Shown here: positions 17,743 through 63,766 of the stretch, in pieces
Position numbering within the stretch: the first letter of the stretch is position 1
Layout: each line of letters starts with the position of its first letter
Assembly: GCF_000743715.1 (NCBI RefSeq)
Contig: NZ_JQEY01000004.1
Location: 37,937-101,936, forward strand
Direction: 5' to 3'
DNA from: Palleronia rufa
GTDB lineage: Bacteria > Pseudomonadota > Alphaproteobacteria > Rhodobacterales > Rhodobacteraceae
DNA length: 64,000 bases
Program-made: the position numbers and the translations under genes
The notes under the pieces: generated by a model
What the model saw: the letters and a program-made list of their open reading frames with translations, nothing else
Told to the model about the DNA's origin: nothing
Database searches by the model: none

Positions 17743-18012
17743 GTTGACCGGAAACGGCCGTGCCGGGCGGCGCGCGACGGGGAGGGTGTGACAGAGGACG
17801 GCCGTGACGGGACGGCATGTCAGAGCCGGTCGGACGGTGACGGGTGTCCGCGGCTGGGGTGAGCGGAACTGGCCGTGCGGGCGGCGCGCGACGGGGAGGG
17901 TGTGACAGAGGACGGCCGTGACGGGACGGCATGTCAGAGCCGGTCGGACGGTGACGGGTGTCCGCGGCTGGGGTGAGCGGAATTGGCCGTGCGGGCGGTG
18001 CGCGACGGGGCG
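17743..18012. repeat. 114-bp tandem repeat, two near-identical full copies plus partial flanks
   Basis: The unit beginning GCGGCGCGCGACGGGGAGGG occurs at 17767-17880 and 17881-17994. The copies differ at one base (AACTGG versus AATTGG just before the end). A diverged start of a further unit follows at 17995 and the end of a unit precedes 17767. The period is a multiple of three, but the frames across it are compositionally random and lack a ribosome-binding site, so I do not call a gene. High identity points to recent duplication. It lies downstream of the DEAD-box helicase gene, whose end is at 18198. Confidence 0.9.
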
Positions 18013-18023
18013 GGCAGACCGGG

Positions 18024-18151
18024 GGGCTGTGGCGGGCGCGCGACCGGGGGCGCCCCCTGGCGCGGCGCTCCGGGGCGTGCGGACCGGAGAGCTCTGGCGG
18101 GGGCGCGAGTGAGGCGCCCCCTGGCGCGGCGCTCCGGGGCGTGCGGACCGG
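18024..18151. repeat. 64-bp imperfect direct repeat
   Basis: An identical 38-base block (GCGCCCCCTGGCGCGGCGCT and onward to GGACCGG) occurs at 18050-18087 and 18114-18151, with weaker similarity in the 26 bases before each copy. It directly follows the 114-bp repeats. No coding function is apparent. Confidence 0.85.
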
Positions 18152-49590: not shown

Positions 49591-49604
49591 GCGGTGCGGC
49601 GGGA

Positions 49605-49666
49605 GGGGGCTTTGCGCCCCCGCTGCCTGCGGCAGCCCCCCGCAGGATACTTGTGGAAAGATGAAG
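49605..49666 (+). repeat. Tandem-hairpin plus GGATAYTTGKGGAAAGATGAAG element, copy 1
   Basis: GGGGGC-TTTGC-GCCCCC (49605-49621) is followed by GCTGCC-TGC-GGCAGC (49622-49636), C-rich spacer and the tail GGATACTTGTGGAAAGATGAAG (49645-49666, 22 bases). It fills the junction between the DUF4159 gene stop (49590) and the next TTG start (49692). Copies with the same layout but different stem bases occur at 56537-56599 and 63648-63702. Confidence 0.8.
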
Positions 49667-54222: not shown

Positions 54223-55023
54223 TCAGCCGGTGCCGTCCCCGTCCGCGCCGCGCGCGCCGCGATCCCGGTCCGGGGCGGCATCGACCGCCGCAGGCCCCGC
54301 CCCGGCGCCGGGTTCGGCGCCGCCGTCGGGCCGGTGCCCGCCGATCAGGATCGCGCGGGGCAGGGACCGGAACTCCCGCGCCCAGATCGTCCAGAGCACC
54401 GCTGCGGCCGCGAGCATCAGCGCGACCCACCCCGCCAGCCACGCCACCGCCGCCAGCGCCACGTAGAGCGCCCTGAGCCCGCGGTTGAAGTTCCACGCGG
54501 CGCGGATGTTCAGCTCGGCGGCGCGGCCCGCGCGGGCGACCGCCTCAGGGTGTCCGGGGTCGTTGGGGACCGCCGCCATCACCACCGCGCAATAGCCAAA
54601 AAGCCGGTTCGCCCAGACGAACTTCAGGAATCCCTCGGTCAACAGCAGCGCGACCAGCGCCAGCTTGATCCGGTAGACCACCGGCGGCGCCTTTTCTCCG
54701 AACTCGGTGGCCACGCCGCTCAGCGTCTCGGCATTGCCGATCAGCGCCAGCACCCCGCCGATGGCGATCACCGTGGTCGAGGCGTAGAACGACGTGCTCT
54801 GCCGCAGCCCGCCCAGGATGGTCGCGTCGAAGATGCGCGGCTGGCGGGTCAGCATCTGCCGCATCCAGTCGCGCCGTTCGCGCATCATCAGAACCGTCAC
54901 CGACGGCCGGTCGGCGCCGACGCGCTCGATCGCGCGGCCAACGATCCACCAGCCGCCAAAGAGCAGCAGCAGCGCCGCCGCGTCGCCCGCCGAAAAGAGC
55001 CGGATGTGGTCGATCAGGGCCAT
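54223..55023 (-). CDS. DUF599 inner-membrane protein
   Basis: 266 residues. Helices: AAALLLLFGGWWIVGR, ASTTVIAIGGVLALIGN, IKLALVALLLTEGFLKFVWA, ALYVALAAVAWLAGWVALML. The MMRERRDWMRQMLTRQPRIF loop and RAAWNFNRGLRALYVALAAV are DUF599 signatures. The C-terminal 40 residues are a charged Asp/Gly/Arg tail. Function of the family is unknown. Confidence 0.9.
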   Translation of the reverse strand: MALIDHIRLFSAGDAAALLLLFGGWWIVGRAIERVGADRPSVTVLMMRERRDWMRQMLTRQPRIFDATILGGLRQSTSFYASTTVIAIGGVLALIGNAETLSGVATEFGEKAPPVVYRIKLALVALLLTEGFLKFVWANRLFGYCAVVMAAVPNDPGHPEAVARAGRAAELNIRAAWNFNRGLRALYVALAAVAWLAGWVALMLAAAAVLWTIWAREFRSLPRAILIGGHRPDGGAEPGAGAGPAAVDAAPDRDRGARGADGDGTG

Positions 55024-55102
55024 GCTGCGTACCTATGCCGCCCATCGACCGCTTGCCAGTGCCCGCCCGCGGTCCTAGCCTTGGCGGCAGGAGGACCGTT
55101 CC

Positions 55103-56545
55103 ATGCAGATGCCCACGCCCGATACCGCGATCCTGTCGCGCCGCGCTGCGGTGCTGCGCCGGCTGGCGGCGGCGCTGCCGGAGCCGGCGCTGATCTCCGA
55201 TCCGGCGGCGCTCAGGACCTACGAATGCGACGCGCTCACCGCCTATCGCTGCCCGCCCATGGCCGTGGTCCTGCCCGGTTCCACCCAGGAGGTGTCGGCC
55301 TGTCTGCGGATCTGCCACGAAGAAGGCGTGCCGGTCGTGCCGCGCGGGTCGGGCACGTCGCTGGCCGGCGGCGCGCTTCCCACGGCGGATTCGATCATCC
55401 TGGGCGTCAGCCGCATGACTGAGGTGCTGGAAACCAGCCTGGCCGACCGCATCATCCGGGTCCAGACCGGAATCACCAACCTGTCGGTCAGCGGCGCCGT
55501 CGAGGACGACGGGTTCTTCTACGCGCCGGACCCGTCCTCGCAGCTGGCCTGCGCCATCGCCGGCAACATCGCCATGAACTCCGGCGGCGCGCATTGTCTG
55601 AAATACGGGGTGACCACCAACAACCTGCTGGGCGTGACCCTGGTGCTGATGGACGGCACCGTGGTCGAGATCGGCGGCGGCCACATGGACGCTCCGGGGC
55701 TGGACCTGCTGTCGGTCATCTGCGGTTCCGAGGGCCAGCTGGGCGTCGTGACCGAGGCGATGCTGCGGATCCTGCCCCGCCCCGAAGGCGCCCGGCCGGT
55801 GCTGATCGGCTACGACAGTTCCGAGACCGCGGGACAATGCGTCAGCGACATCATCAAGGCCGGGATCCTGCCGGTGGCGATCGAGTTCATGGACCGTCCC
55901 TGCATCCGCGCCACGGACGAGTTTTCCGGCGCGGGCTATCCCGACTGCGAGGCGATGCTGATCGTGGAGGTCGAAGGCTCCGACCCCGAGATCGACGAGC
56001 AGCTCGGCATCATCAGCCAGATCGCCCGCCGGCTCGACCCGGTGGAGCTGCGGGTGAGCGGGAGCGCCGAGGAAAGCGCGCGGATCTGGCTGGGGCGCAA
56101 GTCGGCCTTCGGGGCGATGGGGCAGATCAACGACTACATCTGCCTCGACGGCACGATCCCGGTGAGCGAGCTGCCCGCCATGCTGCGCGGCATCGCCGAT
56201 CTGTCCGGCAGATACGGGCTTGAGGTGGCCAATGTGTTCCACGCCGGCGACGGCAACATGCACCCGCTGATCCTGTTCGACGCCAACGCGGACGGCGAGC
56301 TGGAAAAGGCCGAGGAGCTGGGCGCGGAGATCCTGACCCTGTGCGTGAAGGTCGGCGGCTGTCTGACCGGAGAGCACGGCGTTGGTGTGGAAAAACGCGA
56401 CCTGATGGAGACCCAGTTCGACCCCGCCGATCTGGAGGCGCAGATGCGGGTCAAGGACGTGTTTGATCCGGGATGGCTGCTCAACCCGGCCAAGGTGTTT
56501 CCGCTTTCGGTCAGCGCGGGACGCCGGGGGATCGCGGCGGAGTAG
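55103..56545 (+). CDS. glcD: Glycolate oxidase FAD subunit GlcD
   Basis: 480 residues. The PCMH-type FAD domain has VVPRGSGTSLAGGALPTADS, YAPDPSSQLACAIAGNIAMN and NSGGAHCLKYGVTTNNLLGV. The C-terminal cap has HAGDGNMHPLILFDANADGE and GGCLTGEHGVGVEKRDLM. Oxidises glycolate to glyoxylate together with GlcE and GlcF. AGGAGG eight bases upstream supports 55103. Its TAG stop lies inside the hairpin element at 56537-56599. Confidence 0.95.
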   Translation: MQMPTPDTAILSRRAAVLRRLAAALPEPALISDPAALRTYECDALTAYRCPPMAVVLPGSTQEVSACLRICHEEGVPVVPRGSGTSLAGGALPTADSIILGVSRMTEVLETSLADRIIRVQTGITNLSVSGAVEDDGFFYAPDPSSQLACAIAGNIAMNSGGAHCLKYGVTTNNLLGVTLVLMDGTVVEIGGGHMDAPGLDLLSVICGSEGQLGVVTEAMLRILPRPEGARPVLIGYDSSETAGQCVSDIIKAGILPVAIEFMDRPCIRATDEFSGAGYPDCEAMLIVEVEGSDPEIDEQLGIISQIARRLDPVELRVSGSAEESARIWLGRKSAFGAMGQINDYICLDGTIPVSELPAMLRGIADLSGRYGLEVANVFHAGDGNMHPLILFDANADGELEKAEELGAEILTLCVKVGGCLTGEHGVGVEKRDLMETQFDPADLEAQMRVKDVFDPGWLLNPAKVFPLSVSAGRRGIAAE

Positions 56546-56599
56546 ATTTTCGGAATCGAAAATCTGCGCTCCGCGGGGGATATTTGTGGAAAGATGAAG
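56537..56599 (+). repeat. Hairpin plus GGATATTTGTGGAAAGATGAAG element, copy 2
   Basis: Outer arms GCGGAG (56537-56542) and CTCCGC (56569-56574) flank a perfect 9-bp stem AGATTTTCG-GAAT-CGAAAATCT (56544-56565). The tail GGGGGATATTTGTGGAAAGATGAAG begins at 56575. The inner AT-rich stem is strikingly different from local composition. The hairpin contains the glcD stop codon and the tail contains the first possible ATG of glcE (56594). Confidence 0.8.
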
Positions 56600-57706
56600 A
56601 TGCTGGAGCCCGTATCGGAGAGCGCGCTCGCCCAGGCGGTCAGGGGCGCGGACGGCCCGCTGGCGATCCGCGGCGGCGGCACGCGGGGCGGGGCGCCGCC
56701 GCGGGACGGCACCGTGCTGTCCGTCGCCGGTTTGACCGGGATCACCCTCTATGAGCCCGGCGCTCTGACGCTGGTGGCGCGGGCGGGCACGCCGATGGCC
56801 GAGATCGACGCCGCCCTGGAGGCGGAGGGGCAGCGGCTGGCCTTCGAGCCGTGGGACGCGCGCGCCGTGCTGGGGCGTGACGGGGTGCCGACCCTGGGCG
56901 GCTGCGTGGCGACCAATGCCAGCGGCCCGCGCCGCATGGTCGCCGGGGCGGCGCGCGACAGCGTGATCGGGATGCGCTTCGTGGACGGGACCGGCACGGC
57001 GGTGAAATCCGGCGGCCGGGTGATGAAGAACGTTACCGGGCTGGACCTGGCCAAGCTGCTCTGCGGCTCCCGCGGGGCGCTGGGCGTCATCACCGAGGTC
57101 AGCCTGAAGCTGCTCCCCGGCATCGCCGCCACCGCGACCCTGGCCGCCGACGGCCTGTCGCCCGACGCGGCCGTCGCCGCCATGTCCGCGGCGCTGTGCA
57201 CGCCCTATGAGGTCACGGGCGCCGTCCACGATCCGGCCGGACCGCGCACCCTGCTGAGGCTGGAGGGCACGGAGGCGTCGGTCTCCTACCGCGCCGATGC
57301 GCTGGCCCGCGCGTTGTCCCGCCACGGCGACTGGCGCGCAGAGCACGGTCCCGGCCCCTGGGCCGACCTGCGCGACGCGCGCGATTTCGCGGGCGGGGCG
57401 GGCGATCTGTGGCGCATCTCGCTGCGGCCGTCCGACGCGCCCGCAACCGTCGCCGCCCTTCCGGGCCGCTGGCGGATGGACTGGGGCGGCGGGCTGATCT
57501 GGGCCGAGGCGCCCGAGGGCACCGACCTGCGCGCGGCCCTTGCCGGCGCCGGCCACGCGACGCTGGTCCGGGCCGGCGCAGACACCCACCGGGCGCTGGG
57601 CACGCTGCACCCCGAACCGGCCCCCGTCGCCCGGCTGACCGACGGGCTGCGCGCCCGGTTCGACCCGCGCGGCCTCTTTTCCGCCCATCCCGGCGTGCCG
57701 GCATGA
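56594..57706 (+). CDS. glcE: Glycolate oxidase subunit GlcE (FAD-binding)
   Basis: 370 residues, PCMH FAD fold: PLAIRGGGTRGGAPP, LTLVARAGTPMAEIDAALEA, GRDGVPTLGGCVATNASGPR, VKSGGRVMKNVTGLDLAKLL and GSRGALGVITEVSLKLLPG. Start is 56594 or the in-frame ATG at 56600; the second is better spaced from GGAAAG in the conserved element. It follows glcD by 48 bases. Confidence 0.94.
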   Translation: MKMLEPVSESALAQAVRGADGPLAIRGGGTRGGAPPRDGTVLSVAGLTGITLYEPGALTLVARAGTPMAEIDAALEAEGQRLAFEPWDARAVLGRDGVPTLGGCVATNASGPRRMVAGAARDSVIGMRFVDGTGTAVKSGGRVMKNVTGLDLAKLLCGSRGALGVITEVSLKLLPGIAATATLAADGLSPDAAVAAMSAALCTPYEVTGAVHDPAGPRTLLRLEGTEASVSYRADALARALSRHGDWRAEHGPGPWADLRDARDFAGGAGDLWRISLRPSDAPATVAALPGRWRMDWGGGLIWAEAPEGTDLRAALAGAGHATLVRAGADTHRALGTLHPEPAPVARLTDGLRARFDPRGLFSAHPGVPA

Positions 57707-57740
57707 GCGTCCCCACCCGCATCCGAAGGGCCTGACCGCC

Positions 57741-59135
57741 ATGCAGACCAGCTTTAGCCCCGAACAGTTGCGCGACCCCGCGACCGCCCGCTCGAACGAG
57801 GTGCTGCGCGCCTGCGTCCACTGCGGCTTCTGCACCGCGACCTGCCCGACCTACCAGGTCCTGGGGGACGAGAACGACAGCCCCCGCGGCCGGATCTACC
57901 TCATCAAGGACATGCTGGAGAACGACCGCCCGGCCGACGCCAGGACGGTGAAGCACATCGACCGCTGCCTGTCCTGCCTGGCCTGCATGACCACCTGCCC
58001 GTCGGGCGTGCACTACATGCACCTGGTGGACCACGCCCGCGCCCATATCGAGCGGACCTACCGCCGCCCCGCCAGGGACCGGGCGCTGCGCTGGATGCTG
58101 GCGCGGATCCTGCCCTATCCCGCCCGGTTCCGGCTGGCCCTGCGCGCGGCGCGGCTGGGCCGTCCGTTCCGCCGCATGATGCCGGATCCGCGCCTGGCCG
58201 CGATGCTCGACATGGCGCCGGACCGGGTGGCGCCGCGCTCGCCGGTGGACCGGCCCCAGACCCACGCGGCGGACGGCGCCCGCCGGATGCGGGTGGCGCT
58301 GCTGACGGGCTGCGCGCAATCCGCACTCGACCCGGCCATCAACGAGGCCACCGTCCGCCTTTTGACCCGTCTGGGGTGCGAGGTGGTGGTGGCCCGCGGC
58401 ATGGGCTGCTGCGGCGCGCTGGTCCACCACATGGGCAAGGAGGCCGAAAGCCACGCCCAGGCCGGCGCCAACATCCGCGCCTGGCAGGCGGTCAGGCGCG
58501 ACGGCGGGCTGGACGCGGTGGTGGTCAACACCTCCGGCTGCGGCACGACGGTCAAGGACTACGGCCACATGATGCGCACCACCGACATGGCCGAGGCGGC
58601 CGCCGAGATCAGCGCGCTGACCGTGGACATCTCCGAACTGCTGGGCCGCCTGCTGCCGGGCACGGACCCGATCGCGCCCGTCAACGAAGCCGCCGAGGAC
58701 ATCGCCGGCACCGACGCCGTGGCCCCGCGCAACGCCGGCCACGGGCTGCGCGTTGCCTACCACGCCGCGTGCTCGCTCCAGCACGGCCAGCAGGTCAAGG
58801 CGCCGCCGAAGTCGCTTCTGGCGCGTGCCGGGTTCGAGGTGGTCGAGCCCAAGGACAGCCATCTGTGCTGCGGCTCCGCCGGCACCTACAACCTGATGCA
58901 GCCCAAGATCGCCGCGGAGCTGAAGGCGCGCAAGCTTCGGACGCTGGCGGCGAAAAGCCCGCAGGTGATCGCCGCCGGCAATATAGGCTGCATGGTCCAG
59001 CTTTCGGGCGGCACGGACATTCCCGTGGTCCACACGGTCGAGCTTCTGGACTGGGCCACCGGCGGCCCGCGCCCGGCCAAGATCCCGCCGTCCATGGCGC
59101 GGCCCCGCCCCGGTGCCGGCGCGTCCGGTGCGTAG
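57741..59135 (+). CDS. glcF: Glycolate oxidase iron-sulfur subunit GlcF
   Basis: 464 residues. Two [4Fe-4S] clusters: CVHCGFCTATCPTY (C25, C28, C31, C35) and CLSCLACMTTCPSG (C76, C79, C82, C86). Two CCG domains follow (RGMGCCGALVHHMGKE, HLCCGSAGTYNLMQ). It passes electrons from the flavin subunits to the membrane quinone pool. No glcC regulator or glcG gene is adjacent. The next gene's GTG start overlaps its last 23 bases. Confidence 0.95.
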   Translation: MQTSFSPEQLRDPATARSNEVLRACVHCGFCTATCPTYQVLGDENDSPRGRIYLIKDMLENDRPADARTVKHIDRCLSCLACMTTCPSGVHYMHLVDHARAHIERTYRRPARDRALRWMLARILPYPARFRLALRAARLGRPFRRMMPDPRLAAMLDMAPDRVAPRSPVDRPQTHAADGARRMRVALLTGCAQSALDPAINEATVRLLTRLGCEVVVARGMGCCGALVHHMGKEAESHAQAGANIRAWQAVRRDGGLDAVVVNTSGCGTTVKDYGHMMRTTDMAEAAAEISALTVDISELLGRLLPGTDPIAPVNEAAEDIAGTDAVAPRNAGHGLRVAYHAACSLQHGQQVKAPPKSLLARAGFEVVEPKDSHLCCGSAGTYNLMQPKIAAELKARKLRTLAAKSPQVIAAGNIGCMVQLSGGTDIPVVHTVELLDWATGGPRPAKIPPSMARPRPGAGASGA

Positions 59136-60775: not shown

Positions 60776-60789
60776 CCGTGCGACCGCTT

Positions 60790-61165
60790 CTCGGGGCCGG
60801 AACCGGAGCCAGAGCCGACCGCGAAGCAGAAGCCGGGTAGAACCGCGACGGGGGTTGGACCGGGGCACGACCATCGCTCGTTCGGCTGCCGAAGGCGGCG
60901 CCACGCCAGCCCGGCGCGCGACCGGTCGTCTGCGCCGCGTCCGAAAGGATCCTGCCCCGGCGCCATGGGTGCCGTCCGCCTTTCGGAGCCGGAGCCGGAG
61001 CCGGAGCCGACCGCGAAGCCGAACCCGGGCCGGACCGCGACGGGGGCCGGACCGGGGCACGACCATCGCTCGTTCGGCTGCCCAAGGCGGCGCCACGCCA
61101 GCCCGGCGCGCGGCCGGTCGTCTGCGCCGCGTCCGAAAGGATCCTGCCCCGGCGCCATGGGGTGC
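60790..61165. repeat. 192-bp tandem duplication
   Basis: GGACCGGGGCACGACCATCG begins at 60857 and at 61049, and the following 110 bases (to CTGCCCCGGCGCCATGG) match almost perfectly. The preceding GGAGCCGGAGCC microsatellite and CGACCGCGAAGC segment also recur. The period is 192. Frames stay open across it on both strands, but the products look like random GC-rich translation. Together with the preceding repeat it fills the 650-base gap between hsp20 and hrpB. Confidence 0.88.
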
Positions 61166-61212: not shown

Positions 61213-63600
61213 TCAGGTCCCGCGCCGCTTCGCCCGCAGGGTCGGGTCGGCCCGGCCCGGATCCTCCGGCCAGGGATGGCGCGGATACCGCGCGCGCATG
61301 TCCTTGGCCACATCCGCGTAGGATCCCGCCCAGAACCCGGGCAGATCCTGCGTCACCTGCACCGGACGCCCCGCCGGCGACAGCAGCGACAGCCGCAAGG
61401 GCCGCCCGGCCACCACCGGATGCCGCGTCATCCCGAACAGCTCCTGCACCCGGATCGCCACCTGGGGCGCGTCGCCGCCGTAGTCGATGGGCACCCGCCG
61501 GCCCAGCGGCGTCACCAGATGCTCCGGCGCCTCGCGGTCGAGCACCCGGGCCTCCTCACGGGACAGCCGCCCCCGGAGCGGCTGCAGCAGATCGAACCGC
61601 GCCCAGTCTTCGGCCGAGCGCACCCCGGTCAGCCAGGGCAGCAGCCAAGCATCTGCCGTCTCCAGCAATGCCTCCTCCGCCGTGTCGAAGAGCCCGGCCA
61701 GCGCCACCCGCGCCAGGAACCGCCGCGCCGCGTCGGAGGGCCGCAGACCCAGGAGCCGCACCCCCTCCAGCATCGCCGCCGCCACCCGGTCGGGCGGCGC
61801 GTCGGGCCAGGTCCGGTCGTCCAGCGCGATGGCGCCCAGCCGCTCCTGGCGGCGGGCCACCACGCGCCCCTCGCGCCGCGACCATGCGCAGACCTCCACC
61901 CAGCCGATGCGCTCGCCCAGCACGGCGCGCAGCTCCGCCTCCGCGATCGCCGCGGCCTGACGGATCCGCGCCTCGCGCGGGTGGCCGTCGGTGTCGGTCA
62001 CCACGATCAGCCGCTGCCCGGCCAGCGCGTCGCCCTCGGCCATGGCGGCGCCCTTGCCCCCCGACAGGAGCCAGCGCGGCGCCTCCCCCGGCCGGCGCAA
62101 CCCGATCCGGTCCGGATAGGCCAGCGCGGCCTGCTGCGCCGCGCTCAGCCCCCGGTCCGGGCCGCCGTACCGCCTGAGCCGCCGCGCCTCGTCCCGGATG
62201 CGGCCCACGGCGCCCATGGCCGCCCCGAACGCCCCCGGCGACCCAAGCGCCCGGAGCCGCAGCGTCAGATCGACGCCCCGATCCCTCAGGATGTCCCGGT
62301 CCGACAGCAAGGCCGCCAGATCGGCGGCCTCGCGCCCCCCGCGATGCAGCATGTGGGCCAGCCGCGGATGCAGCGGCACCGCCGCCAGCGCCCGGCCGTG
62401 GTCGCTGATCCGCCCGTCCTCCAGCGCCCCGAGCGCTGCCAGAAGCGCCCGCGCCTCGGCCAGCGCGCCCTCGGGCGGCGGCGTGAGAAAGGGCAGGGCG
62501 GTGCCCTCCGGATCGCCCCAGAGCGCCAGGTCCAGCGCCAGCCCGGTCAGGTCCGCCGCCGCGATCTCGGGCGGCGCATGGGCCGGCAGCGCGCCGTCCT
62601 CGCCGCGGGTCCAGAGCTTCCAGGCCACCCCCGGCGCCACCCGGCCCGCCCGGCCCGCCCGCTGCGCCGCCTCGGCGCGGCTGACCCGCTCGGTCACCAG
62701 CCGCGTCATGCCGCTGCCGGGATCGAACCGCGCCCGCCGCGCCCGTCCCCCGTCCACCACGATGCGCACGTCCTCGATGGTCAGGGAGGTCTCGGCGATG
62801 GCCGTCGCCAGCACCAGCTTGCGCCCGGGCGACGGCGCGATGGCGGCCCGCTGCTCGGCAAAGGGCAGCGCGCCGTAGAGCGGCCGCACCTCCACCCCCG
62901 GCAGGTCCAGCCGCGCCATCACCCGGCGGATCTCTCCCTCGCCGGGCAGGAACGCCAGCACGCCGCCGGCGTCCTCCGCCACCGCGCGGCCGATCAGCGC
63001 CGCCATCGCCGCGTCGAACCGCATGTCCCTGGCCACCCGCCGCTCCAGCCAGCGCGGCGCCACGGCGAACGCCCGGCCGGCACTCGTCACCACCGGCGCG
63101 TCCCCCAGCAGCGCCGCCACGGGGCCTGCGTCCAGCGTCGCAGACATCACCACCACGGCCAGATCCGCGCGCAGCGCCTGGCGCACCTCCCAGACCAGCG
63201 CCAGCCCCAGGTCGGCGTTCAGCGACCGCTCGTGGAACTCGTCGAAGATCACGCAGCCGACGCCCTCCAGCCCGGGATCGCGTTGCAGGCGCCGGGTCAG
63301 GATCCCTTCCGTCACCACCTCGATCCGCGTCGCCTCCGACACCACCCGGTCGCCGCGCACCGCATAGCCCACGGTCGCGCCCACCCGCTCGCCCAGGGTC
63401 CGGGCCATCCGCTCGGCCGCCGCCCGCGCCGCCAGCCGCCGCGGCTCCAGCATCACGATCCGCCCGGGGATCTGCTCCAGCAGCGCCAGCGGCACGCGCG
63501 TGGTCTTGCCGGCGCCCGGCGGCGCCTGCAGCACCGCACGCCCCGCCGACGCCAGCGCGGCGCGCAACTCTCCCAGAACGGCGTCGATGGGCAACTCCAT
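61213..63600 (-). CDS. hrpB: ATP-dependent helicase HrpB
   Basis: 795 residues, DEAH/DExH family. Walker A VLQAPPGAGKTTRVPLALLE, PRRLAARAAAERMA, GYAVRGDRVVS, motif II VIFDEFHERSLNADLG (DEFH), SAT in VVVMSATLDAG, LATAIAETSLTIEDVRIVVD and motif VI AQRAGRAGRVAPG. A C-terminal HrpB-specific domain contains PIDYGGDAPQVAIRVQELFG. Its RNA substrate is not well defined in bacteria. Confidence 0.95.
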   Translation of the reverse strand: MELPIDAVLGELRAALASAGRAVLQAPPGAGKTTRVPLALLEQIPGRIVMLEPRRLAARAAAERMARTLGERVGATVGYAVRGDRVVSEATRIEVVTEGILTRRLQRDPGLEGVGCVIFDEFHERSLNADLGLALVWEVRQALRADLAVVVMSATLDAGPVAALLGDAPVVTSAGRAFAVAPRWLERRVARDMRFDAAMAALIGRAVAEDAGGVLAFLPGEGEIRRVMARLDLPGVEVRPLYGALPFAEQRAAIAPSPGRKLVLATAIAETSLTIEDVRIVVDGGRARRARFDPGSGMTRLVTERVSRAEAAQRAGRAGRVAPGVAWKLWTRGEDGALPAHAPPEIAAADLTGLALDLALWGDPEGTALPFLTPPPEGALAEARALLAALGALEDGRISDHGRALAAVPLHPRLAHMLHRGGREAADLAALLSDRDILRDRGVDLTLRLRALGSPGAFGAAMGAVGRIRDEARRLRRYGGPDRGLSAAQQAALAYPDRIGLRRPGEAPRWLLSGGKGAAMAEGDALAGQRLIVVTDTDGHPREARIRQAAAIAEAELRAVLGERIGWVEVCAWSRREGRVVARRQERLGAIALDDRTWPDAPPDRVAAAMLEGVRLLGLRPSDAARRFLARVALAGLFDTAEEALLETADAWLLPWLTGVRSAEDWARFDLLQPLRGRLSREEARVLDREAPEHLVTPLGRRVPIDYGGDAPQVAIRVQELFGMTRHPVVAGRPLRLSLLSPAGRPVQVTQDLPGFWAGSYADVAKDMRARYPRHPWPEDPGRADPTLRAKRRGT

Positions 63601-63647
63601 GTCCCCGGCCTACAATCCCGCACGCCCCTTGCCCAGCCGCCCGCCCG

Positions 63648-63702
63648 TTCATCTTTCCCCAAATATCCCGGGGGGCCGCGCAGCGGCGGGGGCAGCGCCC
63701 CC
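63648..63702 (-). repeat. Tandem-hairpin plus GGATATTTGGGGAAAGATGAA element, copy 3
   Basis: Read on the minus strand: GGGGGC-GCT-GCCCCC (63702-63688), GCCGC-TGC-GCGGC (63687-63675), C-rich spacer, then GGGATATTTGGGGAAAGATGAA (63669-63648). Same order as copy 1 with different stem bases that still pair. The tail points toward hrpB (start 63600), about 48 bases away. Confidence 0.8.
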
Positions 63703-63766
63703 TTTCCCTTTGCGGCGCGCGCGGCCCGCTCTGGACAAGAGCCGCCCGCGCCAGCATCAAGCGGCC

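Follow-up and report, generated by a model that had tools for sequence, protein, structure and literature searches.

The junction between glcD and glcE carries one copy of a dispersed hairpin element that has a recurrent anatomy, is present in dozens of copies in its genome, prefers the 3' side of genes and the gaps between convergent genes, and ends in a genome-specific tail that differs between genomes at orthologous places. We place about even confidence in the interpretation that the glcD-glcE stretch is one instance of a terminator-like, gene-end module of Rhodobacteraceae, the core and tail of which would be read by a lineage-specific factor. The term window denotes here the whole stretch of DNA analysed (64,000 nt). 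Genes around the elements were called with a codon-usage caller made for this analysis and not taken from annotation.

At the glc junction (Table 1), the last residues and the stop codon of glcD sit within the 5' arm of the hairpin. Its GC arms, GCGGAG at 56537-56542 and CTCCGC at 56569-56574, were read directly and enclose an AT stem of nine Watson-Crick pairs (56544-56552 with 56557-56565) around the loop GAAT (56553-56556), extended by the pairs U56543.G56566 and G56542-C56567. The original prediction of a 9-bp AT-rich stem within GC arms at 56537-56599, with the glcD TAG inside the stem, is thus borne out by both sequence reading and folding. Predicted RNA folding of 56520-56610 gave -37.5 kcal/mol (z -3.85), a stability equalled in 0 of 200 shuffles; the minimum-energy fold is an 11-pair AT stem that leaves the outer GC arms unused. 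The hairpin is followed on its 3' side by GGATATTTGTGGAAAGATGAAG. A consensus scan scored 56563-56577 as terminator-like, but this single call means little because the scan reported 7 sites in 15 kb compared to 2.9 (SD 1.9) in shuffles. Rfam covariance models had no match in 55000-58500 at E up to 1, and a known RNA family was rejected on this basis; a chance origin of the element was rejected on the basis of shuffles, the reversed genome control and the folding z-score.

Table 1. Features of the glc region and the two other element copies in the window
Feature	Position	Strand	Basis or remark
glcD, glycolate oxidase subunit GlcD	55103..56545	+	ORF; NF008408, E 9.9e-158, below its curated cut-off
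Hairpin module GCGGAG / TAGATTTTCG-GAAT-CGAAAATCTG / CG / CTCCGC	56537..56574	+	folding, sequence
glcD stop codon TAG, paired in predicted stem	56543..56545	+	
Core GGGGGATATTT (family consensus GGRDTATTT)	56575..56585	+	
Variable spacer GT	56586..56587	+	information content 0.36 and 0.50 bits (n = 38 tail-blind copies)
Genome-specific tail GGAAAGATGAAG, contains ATG 56594-56596	56588..56599	+	
glcE from likelier start ATG 56600 (also readable from 56594)	56600..57706	+	
glcF	57741..59135	+	
Copy 1: GC double hairpin + GGATACTTGTGGAAAGATGAAG	49601..49666	+	just past stop of predicted gene ending 49590
Copy 3: GC double hairpin + GGATATTTGGGGAAAGATGAAC	63647..63711	-	upstream of large ORF starting 63600

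The original prediction had also described the hairpin as a repeated element, and it indeed belongs to a dispersed family. In the window, GGATATTTNTGGAAAGATGAAG with up to 3 mismatches has three matches (49645+, 56578+, 63647-) and none in 100 shuffles; copy 3 is not at a gene end. Over the 3.85-Mb genome, GGATATTTNNGGAAAGATGAAG with up to 3 mismatches yielded 56 matches, 30 of them perfect, compared to 0 in the reversed control, this first list being selected by the tail. The common anatomy comprises one or two variable hairpins, GGRDTATTT, two to three near-random bases and a purine-rich tail of 10-12 nt. Information content falls from near 2 bits in the flanking blocks to 0.36 and 0.50 bits at the two bases after TATTT. 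Upstream hairpins in this genome are of few types, namely GGGGGCGCTGCCCCC plus a second GC hairpin, GGGGCTCTGCCCCGGACCCC, GCGAGGGGCCAGCCCCTCGCGCTCCCC and a rare AT-cored type comprising the glc copy, L002 and L007, and a few copies are devoid of a hairpin. Across this and related genomes, a strong stem is present in 138 of 202 elements (among them matches from named relatives, a part of which could be fortuitous) and in 16 of 201 control stretches. The ratio of G.U to A.C in the stems is 51 to 43, without a clear excess that would indicate selection at the RNA level, and a ratio of 57 to 26 in control stretches makes this test uninformative.

Exact GAAAGATGAAG sites number 49 in the genome: 45 are inside an element, 3 were read and lie outside, and 1 is unread. 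A trans-acting RNA with a perfect 11-nt complement to the tail was rejected, given that exact matches on either strand fall almost exclusively within the elements. Two loci of the same genome, L036 and L040 (C13:2875-2928 and C2:153673-153722), are tail-to-tail pairs in two similar contexts, with one half, AAATATTTCGGGAAAGATGAAG, lacking a GC hairpin. Tandem GTTCGGGGCKCTGCCC units stand immediately upstream of the element at L014, L028 and L034.

Placement at gene ends is a preference and not a rule. A same-strand stop codon lies within 100 nt of 24 of 51 copies in this genome and of 44 of 87 copies in other genomes of the genus, and an opposite-strand start codon is found there in 7 and 14 copies, respectively. 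About half of the copies thus have a GC hairpin soon after a stop codon, and in about half the distance past the stop is approximately 40 nt (medians 43 and 39). Once copies inside ORFs are set apart (8/51 here and 12/87 in the other genus genomes, according to our own gene calls), 15 of 40 classified copies are located between convergent genes (P 5e-5), as are 16 of 73 in the other genus genomes (P 0.017), against a baseline of 7 of the 56 pairs of adjacent genes in the window. Relative to all copies in this genome the fraction is 15/51. Convergent copies serve no start codon because no next start codon is present there. Between codirectional genes, sense copies outnumber antisense copies 14 to 8 in this genome, which is not significant by itself (P 0.14), 36 to 17 in the others (P 0.006) and 50 to 25 when pooled (P 0.003). 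The antisense copies amount to 8 of the 51 in this genome, and 3 more are in divergent gaps.

The tails are nearly uniform inside many genomes and often differ between species of one genus. Dialects were tested on a list compiled blind to the tail, with 139 places in 14 genomes, of which 13 (including this one, G000) are of the genus and one, G014, is of another genus. In G000, 36 of 38 copies have a tail with no more than one mismatch from GAAAGATGAA, compared to 0 of 21 copies in G003 (tail CAAGGATGAAG) and 0 of 12 in G014 (tail CCAAGAAGTG). G002 and G006 have the tail AAAGGGTGA, and G008 and G013 have ACCAGTGATG. There are two tails each in G001 and G004, one of them near the GAAAGATGAA type (7/17 and 5/13 copies), and the tails of G007, G011 and the single G005 copy are also within one mismatch of it, so that tails are not wholly species-specific. 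Genome labels nevertheless explain the tails, because one modal 8-mer per genome covers 107 of 135 copies (genomes with at least 4 copies) compared to a mean of 58.9 and a maximum of 66 in 200 label shuffles.

At orthologous places, the tail mostly tracks the genome and not the place. We compared 82 orthologous site pairs, composed of pairs from the genome set plus 7 bchB, 9 xdhB and 3 bchP copies, from which G008 (bchB), G013 (xdhB) and G006 (bchP) were left out as near-identical sisters. Of 140 comparisons, which overlap and are not independent, 107 placed the tail closer to other copies of the same genome and 28 closer to the ortholog; after removal of three sister pairs that share a dialect, these numbers were 105 and 17 of 126. 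For the hairpin the answer is mixed, with 72 comparisons closer to the own genome and 61 to the ortholog, and a global hairpin score that favoured place (17.9 over 28 pairs, versus 15.5 within and 15.4 between genomes). The glc site alone has four tails in four Palleronia-type genomes: GGAAAGATGAAG here, GGACAAGGGTGAAG in P. abyssalis, GGAGACCAGTGATGG in P. pontilimi (L060) and GGAGACACAAAGAGG in P. caenipelagi. If G004 is P. pontilimi, its glc tail is not among the two common tails of that genome.

Four copies in this genome are read in sense and in frame inside CobN, BchP, BchB and XdhB, with the peptide DISGKMKG in three of them. The xdhB copy (L054) neighbours an antisense copy in a linker of an XdhA-like gene (L055), named from neighbourhood and from its sequence by eye. 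Among 12 genomes, the bchB element is present in eight (G000, G001, G002, G004, G006, G008, G013 and, with a broken hairpin, G007) and absent from G003, G009, G010 and G011. The xdhB element is present in 10 of 12 and absent from G010 and G012; distant and fragmented xdhB matches in G001 and G002 were left out of the set. The bchP genes of G000 and G003 contain the full element, those of G002 and G006 have core and tail but no hairpin, and the linker is shorter in the remaining eight genomes. All linker lengths at the three genes are multiples of three. The tail of many in-protein copies is that of their own genome or close to it. Exceptions occur at xdhB, where G008 and G013 carry GGAAAGATGAAG and not the tail most frequent in these genomes, and where the G009 copy has GAAACGGTGAAA, which fits neither. 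By eye, the second hairpin of the xdhB copies pairs with changing letters (GCGGGCAAGCCCGC, GCGCTTCGCGC, GGCCTTCGGCC, GCGCTGCGCGC, GCCGCCGGTGGCGGC). For annotation, these elements contribute in-frame peptides such as DISGKMK to proteins and can shift predicted start codons.

A relative with a 2.8-Mb genome, G038, has 116 copies in two subfamilies, GGAGTATTT-NN-GCTCGATGAAAG and GGGATATTT-NN-GCAAAATGAAAG. Among 100 listed copies, 63 of the 64 with an AG core end in a CTC/CTT tail, and all 35 with a GA core have CAAA. Neighbours within 300 nt, counted among the same 100 copies, are arranged tail to tail in 24 cases and head to head or directly in none, and 17 of the 24 pairs mix both types (expected 11.5, P 0.013). 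Of 31 copies read in context, 16 are between convergent genes. One G038 copy (L325) reads as a glcD-glcE junction, with the gene named from the protein start, and carries the tail of G038 itself. At L318 and L321, the opposite-strand partners read as a third tail type that resembles GCGTATTTGCACCAAGAAGAAG.

A tail-blind pattern (CCCCNGRDTATTT plus 18 bases) matched in 42 of 46 genomes of the family, with at least 5 matches in 26 and a maximum of 116 in two genomes. The remaining 20 are at background, with 0 to 4 matches, as in controls (0 to 4 per strand). Copy number is uneven within the genus, with 38 matches in this genome, 21 in G003, 2 in G008, 1 each in G005 and G009, and 0 in G010. Nine genomes from other families of the class had 0 to 3 matches each and no common tail. 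One copy used as a blastn query had matches in 28 plasmid records, including 17 from Leisingera; among the matches listed, five plasmid records from Clavibacter, Rhodovastum, Xylanimonas and Rathayibacter are probably chance. A phage origin was rejected, with no match of one 75-nt copy in 50,697 phage records. No strand blocks along the chromosome were apparent by eye among 36 listed matches on one G057 contig. Titles and abstract openings among the matches listed from open-licence PMC do not name the element, and in a REP survey (PMC12306157) the terms Rhodobacter and Paracoccus do not occur.

Regarding glcE, the purine-rich tail adjoins the start of the gene, and the tail does contain, as was originally predicted, an ATG, at 56594, which would add Met-Lys to GlcE. 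The further claim that the tail supplies the start codon is less well placed. ATG 56600, which follows the tail immediately, is the more probable start because relatives such as L062 and L137 begin there in the alignment, their initial Met aligning by eye with residue 3 of the longer reading. Based on these alignment starts, the tail at the glc site is probably the leader of glcE rather than its start. Elsewhere the tail ATG appears usable: in 13 of 52 copies of this genome, in-protein copies included, a coding-like frame of 80 codons or more begins with it, compared to 0 and 3 in the other frames. At QueG (L021) and a NifS-like protein (L056), the tail probably provides the start codon, because no other ATG, GTG or TTG lies between the tail ATG and the conserved region of the protein.

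A further proposal made earlier for this site was that hairpin, processing site and start signal together couple glcD and glcE. We consider it quite improbable. In its favor are the proximity of the tail to glcE, the apparently usable tail ATG at other copies, and the AU-rich RUAUUU, given that RNase E sites of R. sphaeroides are AU-enriched according to PMC6238624. The same paper describes an AU-rich intergenic site at which RNase E processes the Rhodobacter puf operon between cistrons. The element shares with this site AU-richness in an intergenic region, but it is a genome-wide repeat, and processing would apply to it only by analogy; many of its copies are not between cistrons. Comparison of glcD-glcE junctions among relatives, the nearest named of which by GlcD are Palleronia, also speaks against a special coupling. 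Of 80 relatives, 78 were scored as adjacent and six (L064, L078, L079, L084, L091, L129) were removed because the GlcE query matched glcD itself, leaving 72. Pattern scanning with correction by hand placed a recognizable core at about 33 of these (35 matches minus coding matches in L115 and L128), a pattern that missed a variant core in L137. More than half of the junctions are thus without the core, and in Palleronia marisminoris (L061) the glcD stop and glcE start nearly overlap in the absence of the element. With dozens of copies in its genome, the element is not specific to glc.

In the favored interpretation as a gene-end module, the hairpin would cause RNA polymerase to pause at the short AU stretch or to be released there, or would shield the new mRNA end, and a factor reading core and tail on both sides of the free spacer would complete 3'-end formation. 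Such a factor is invoked because the U stretch is weak. Factor and sites would drift together and give each lineage its own tail dialect, sometimes two. The glc copy would then form a partial mRNA end for glcD while its purine-rich tail doubles as glcE leader. In favor of mRNA 3'-end formation are the position about 40 nt past stop codons in about half of the copies, the convergent pairs and the strong hairpins. A reader in contact with both blocks is suggested by the weak U stretch and by the link that core and tail show across a free spacer. The main difficulty for a terminator is posed by the in-frame copies in bchB, xdhB, bchP and cobN, where termination should be harmful unless translation masks it; most of their tails are nonetheless in dialect. 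Antisense copies between codirectional genes, the copies in divergent gaps, tails partly common to several genomes and the many family genomes at pattern background also weigh against it, as do the deviating xdhB tails of G008, G013 and G009, the deviating glc tail of P. pontilimi (if this is G004) and hairpins that did not track the place in the pairwise comparisons. A more elaborate form, possible but in our view doubtful, is a Rhodobacteraceae gene-end code composed of hairpin, AU stretch and tail, in which a fast-diverging factor reads core and tail, one or two codes exist per genome, and sites are rewritten together even inside BchB and XdhB. Many members of the family would then label the ends of their genes with a species-specific code, and this code would change in concert at dozens of unlinked sites. 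This would point to a new recognition factor, acting in transcription termination, in the formation of mRNA 3' ends or in DNA self-recognition, and would constitute a natural experiment on how the specificity of a genome-scattered binding site changes.

REP sequences and REPINs with their RAYT transposase are dispersed extragenic hairpins with inverted pairs and species-specific sequence. Like these, the element is a dispersed palindrome in many copies (56 here), and a selfish palindromic element that multiplies by copying, is tolerated behind genes and within the linkers of proteins, and has subfamilies that replace each other would account for the presence or absence of in-frame linker copies among close relatives and for the discrete core-tail subfamilies and tail-to-tail pairs of G038. 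We regard this as unlikely. The near-random spacer between fixed blocks argues for selected contacts, since uniformity produced by recent copying would have extended to the spacer, and tails differ where the place itself is unchanged. The element also differs from REP/REPIN by its long conserved 3' tail, and an identity with RAYT/REP is rejected since the Y1 transposase domain PF01797 has 0 matches in G000 (1 of 10 same-genus genomes scanned and 3 of 15 genomes overall matched). Rickettsia palindromic elements are likewise read in frame inside unrelated proteins, as described in PMC10969869. The element, by contrast, is mostly outside ORFs, measures about 60 nt versus about 150, and has a genome-specific tail.

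Shared letters could alternatively reflect nothing beyond descent among plain intrinsic terminators, an explanation to which we give little credence. As in Rho-independent terminators, including USS-terminators, the hairpin follows soon past the stop and convergent gaps are enriched, and the glc copy was scored as terminator-like; but the stem is followed only by TATTT, behind GGRD, conserved sequence continues beyond this weak U stretch, copies occur inside ORFs, and tails resemble one another within a genome but differ from genome to genome at corresponding places. It is also conceivable, though with low probability, that the element is a signal for DNA uptake or self-recognition lodged in terminators, with dialects as in Neisseriaceae. 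In PMC3630211, DNA uptake sequences (DUS) are described as one short motif per species, with several dialects in the family and sometimes two in a genome, inverted pairs tied to terminators and some copies in ORFs. Features of our element that PMC3630211 and PMC1852404 all report for DUS are a dialect uniform within a genome, the co-occurrence of two dialects in certain genomes, inverted pairs and copies inside ORFs. However, DUS are present in thousands of copies, compared to dozens to 116 here, the tail lies 3' of a separate hairpin and is rarely found free of the element, and an uptake role would rest on analogy.

Other repeats are present in the window. A tandem pair of 114-nt units, 99% identical, occupies 17764-17991, and two identical 39-nt copies with a spacing of 64 nt are located at 18049-18151. 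Two 189-nt copies (60781-61161, spacing 192 nt, 92% identical) lie close to the end of a large minus-strand ORF at 61213-63600.
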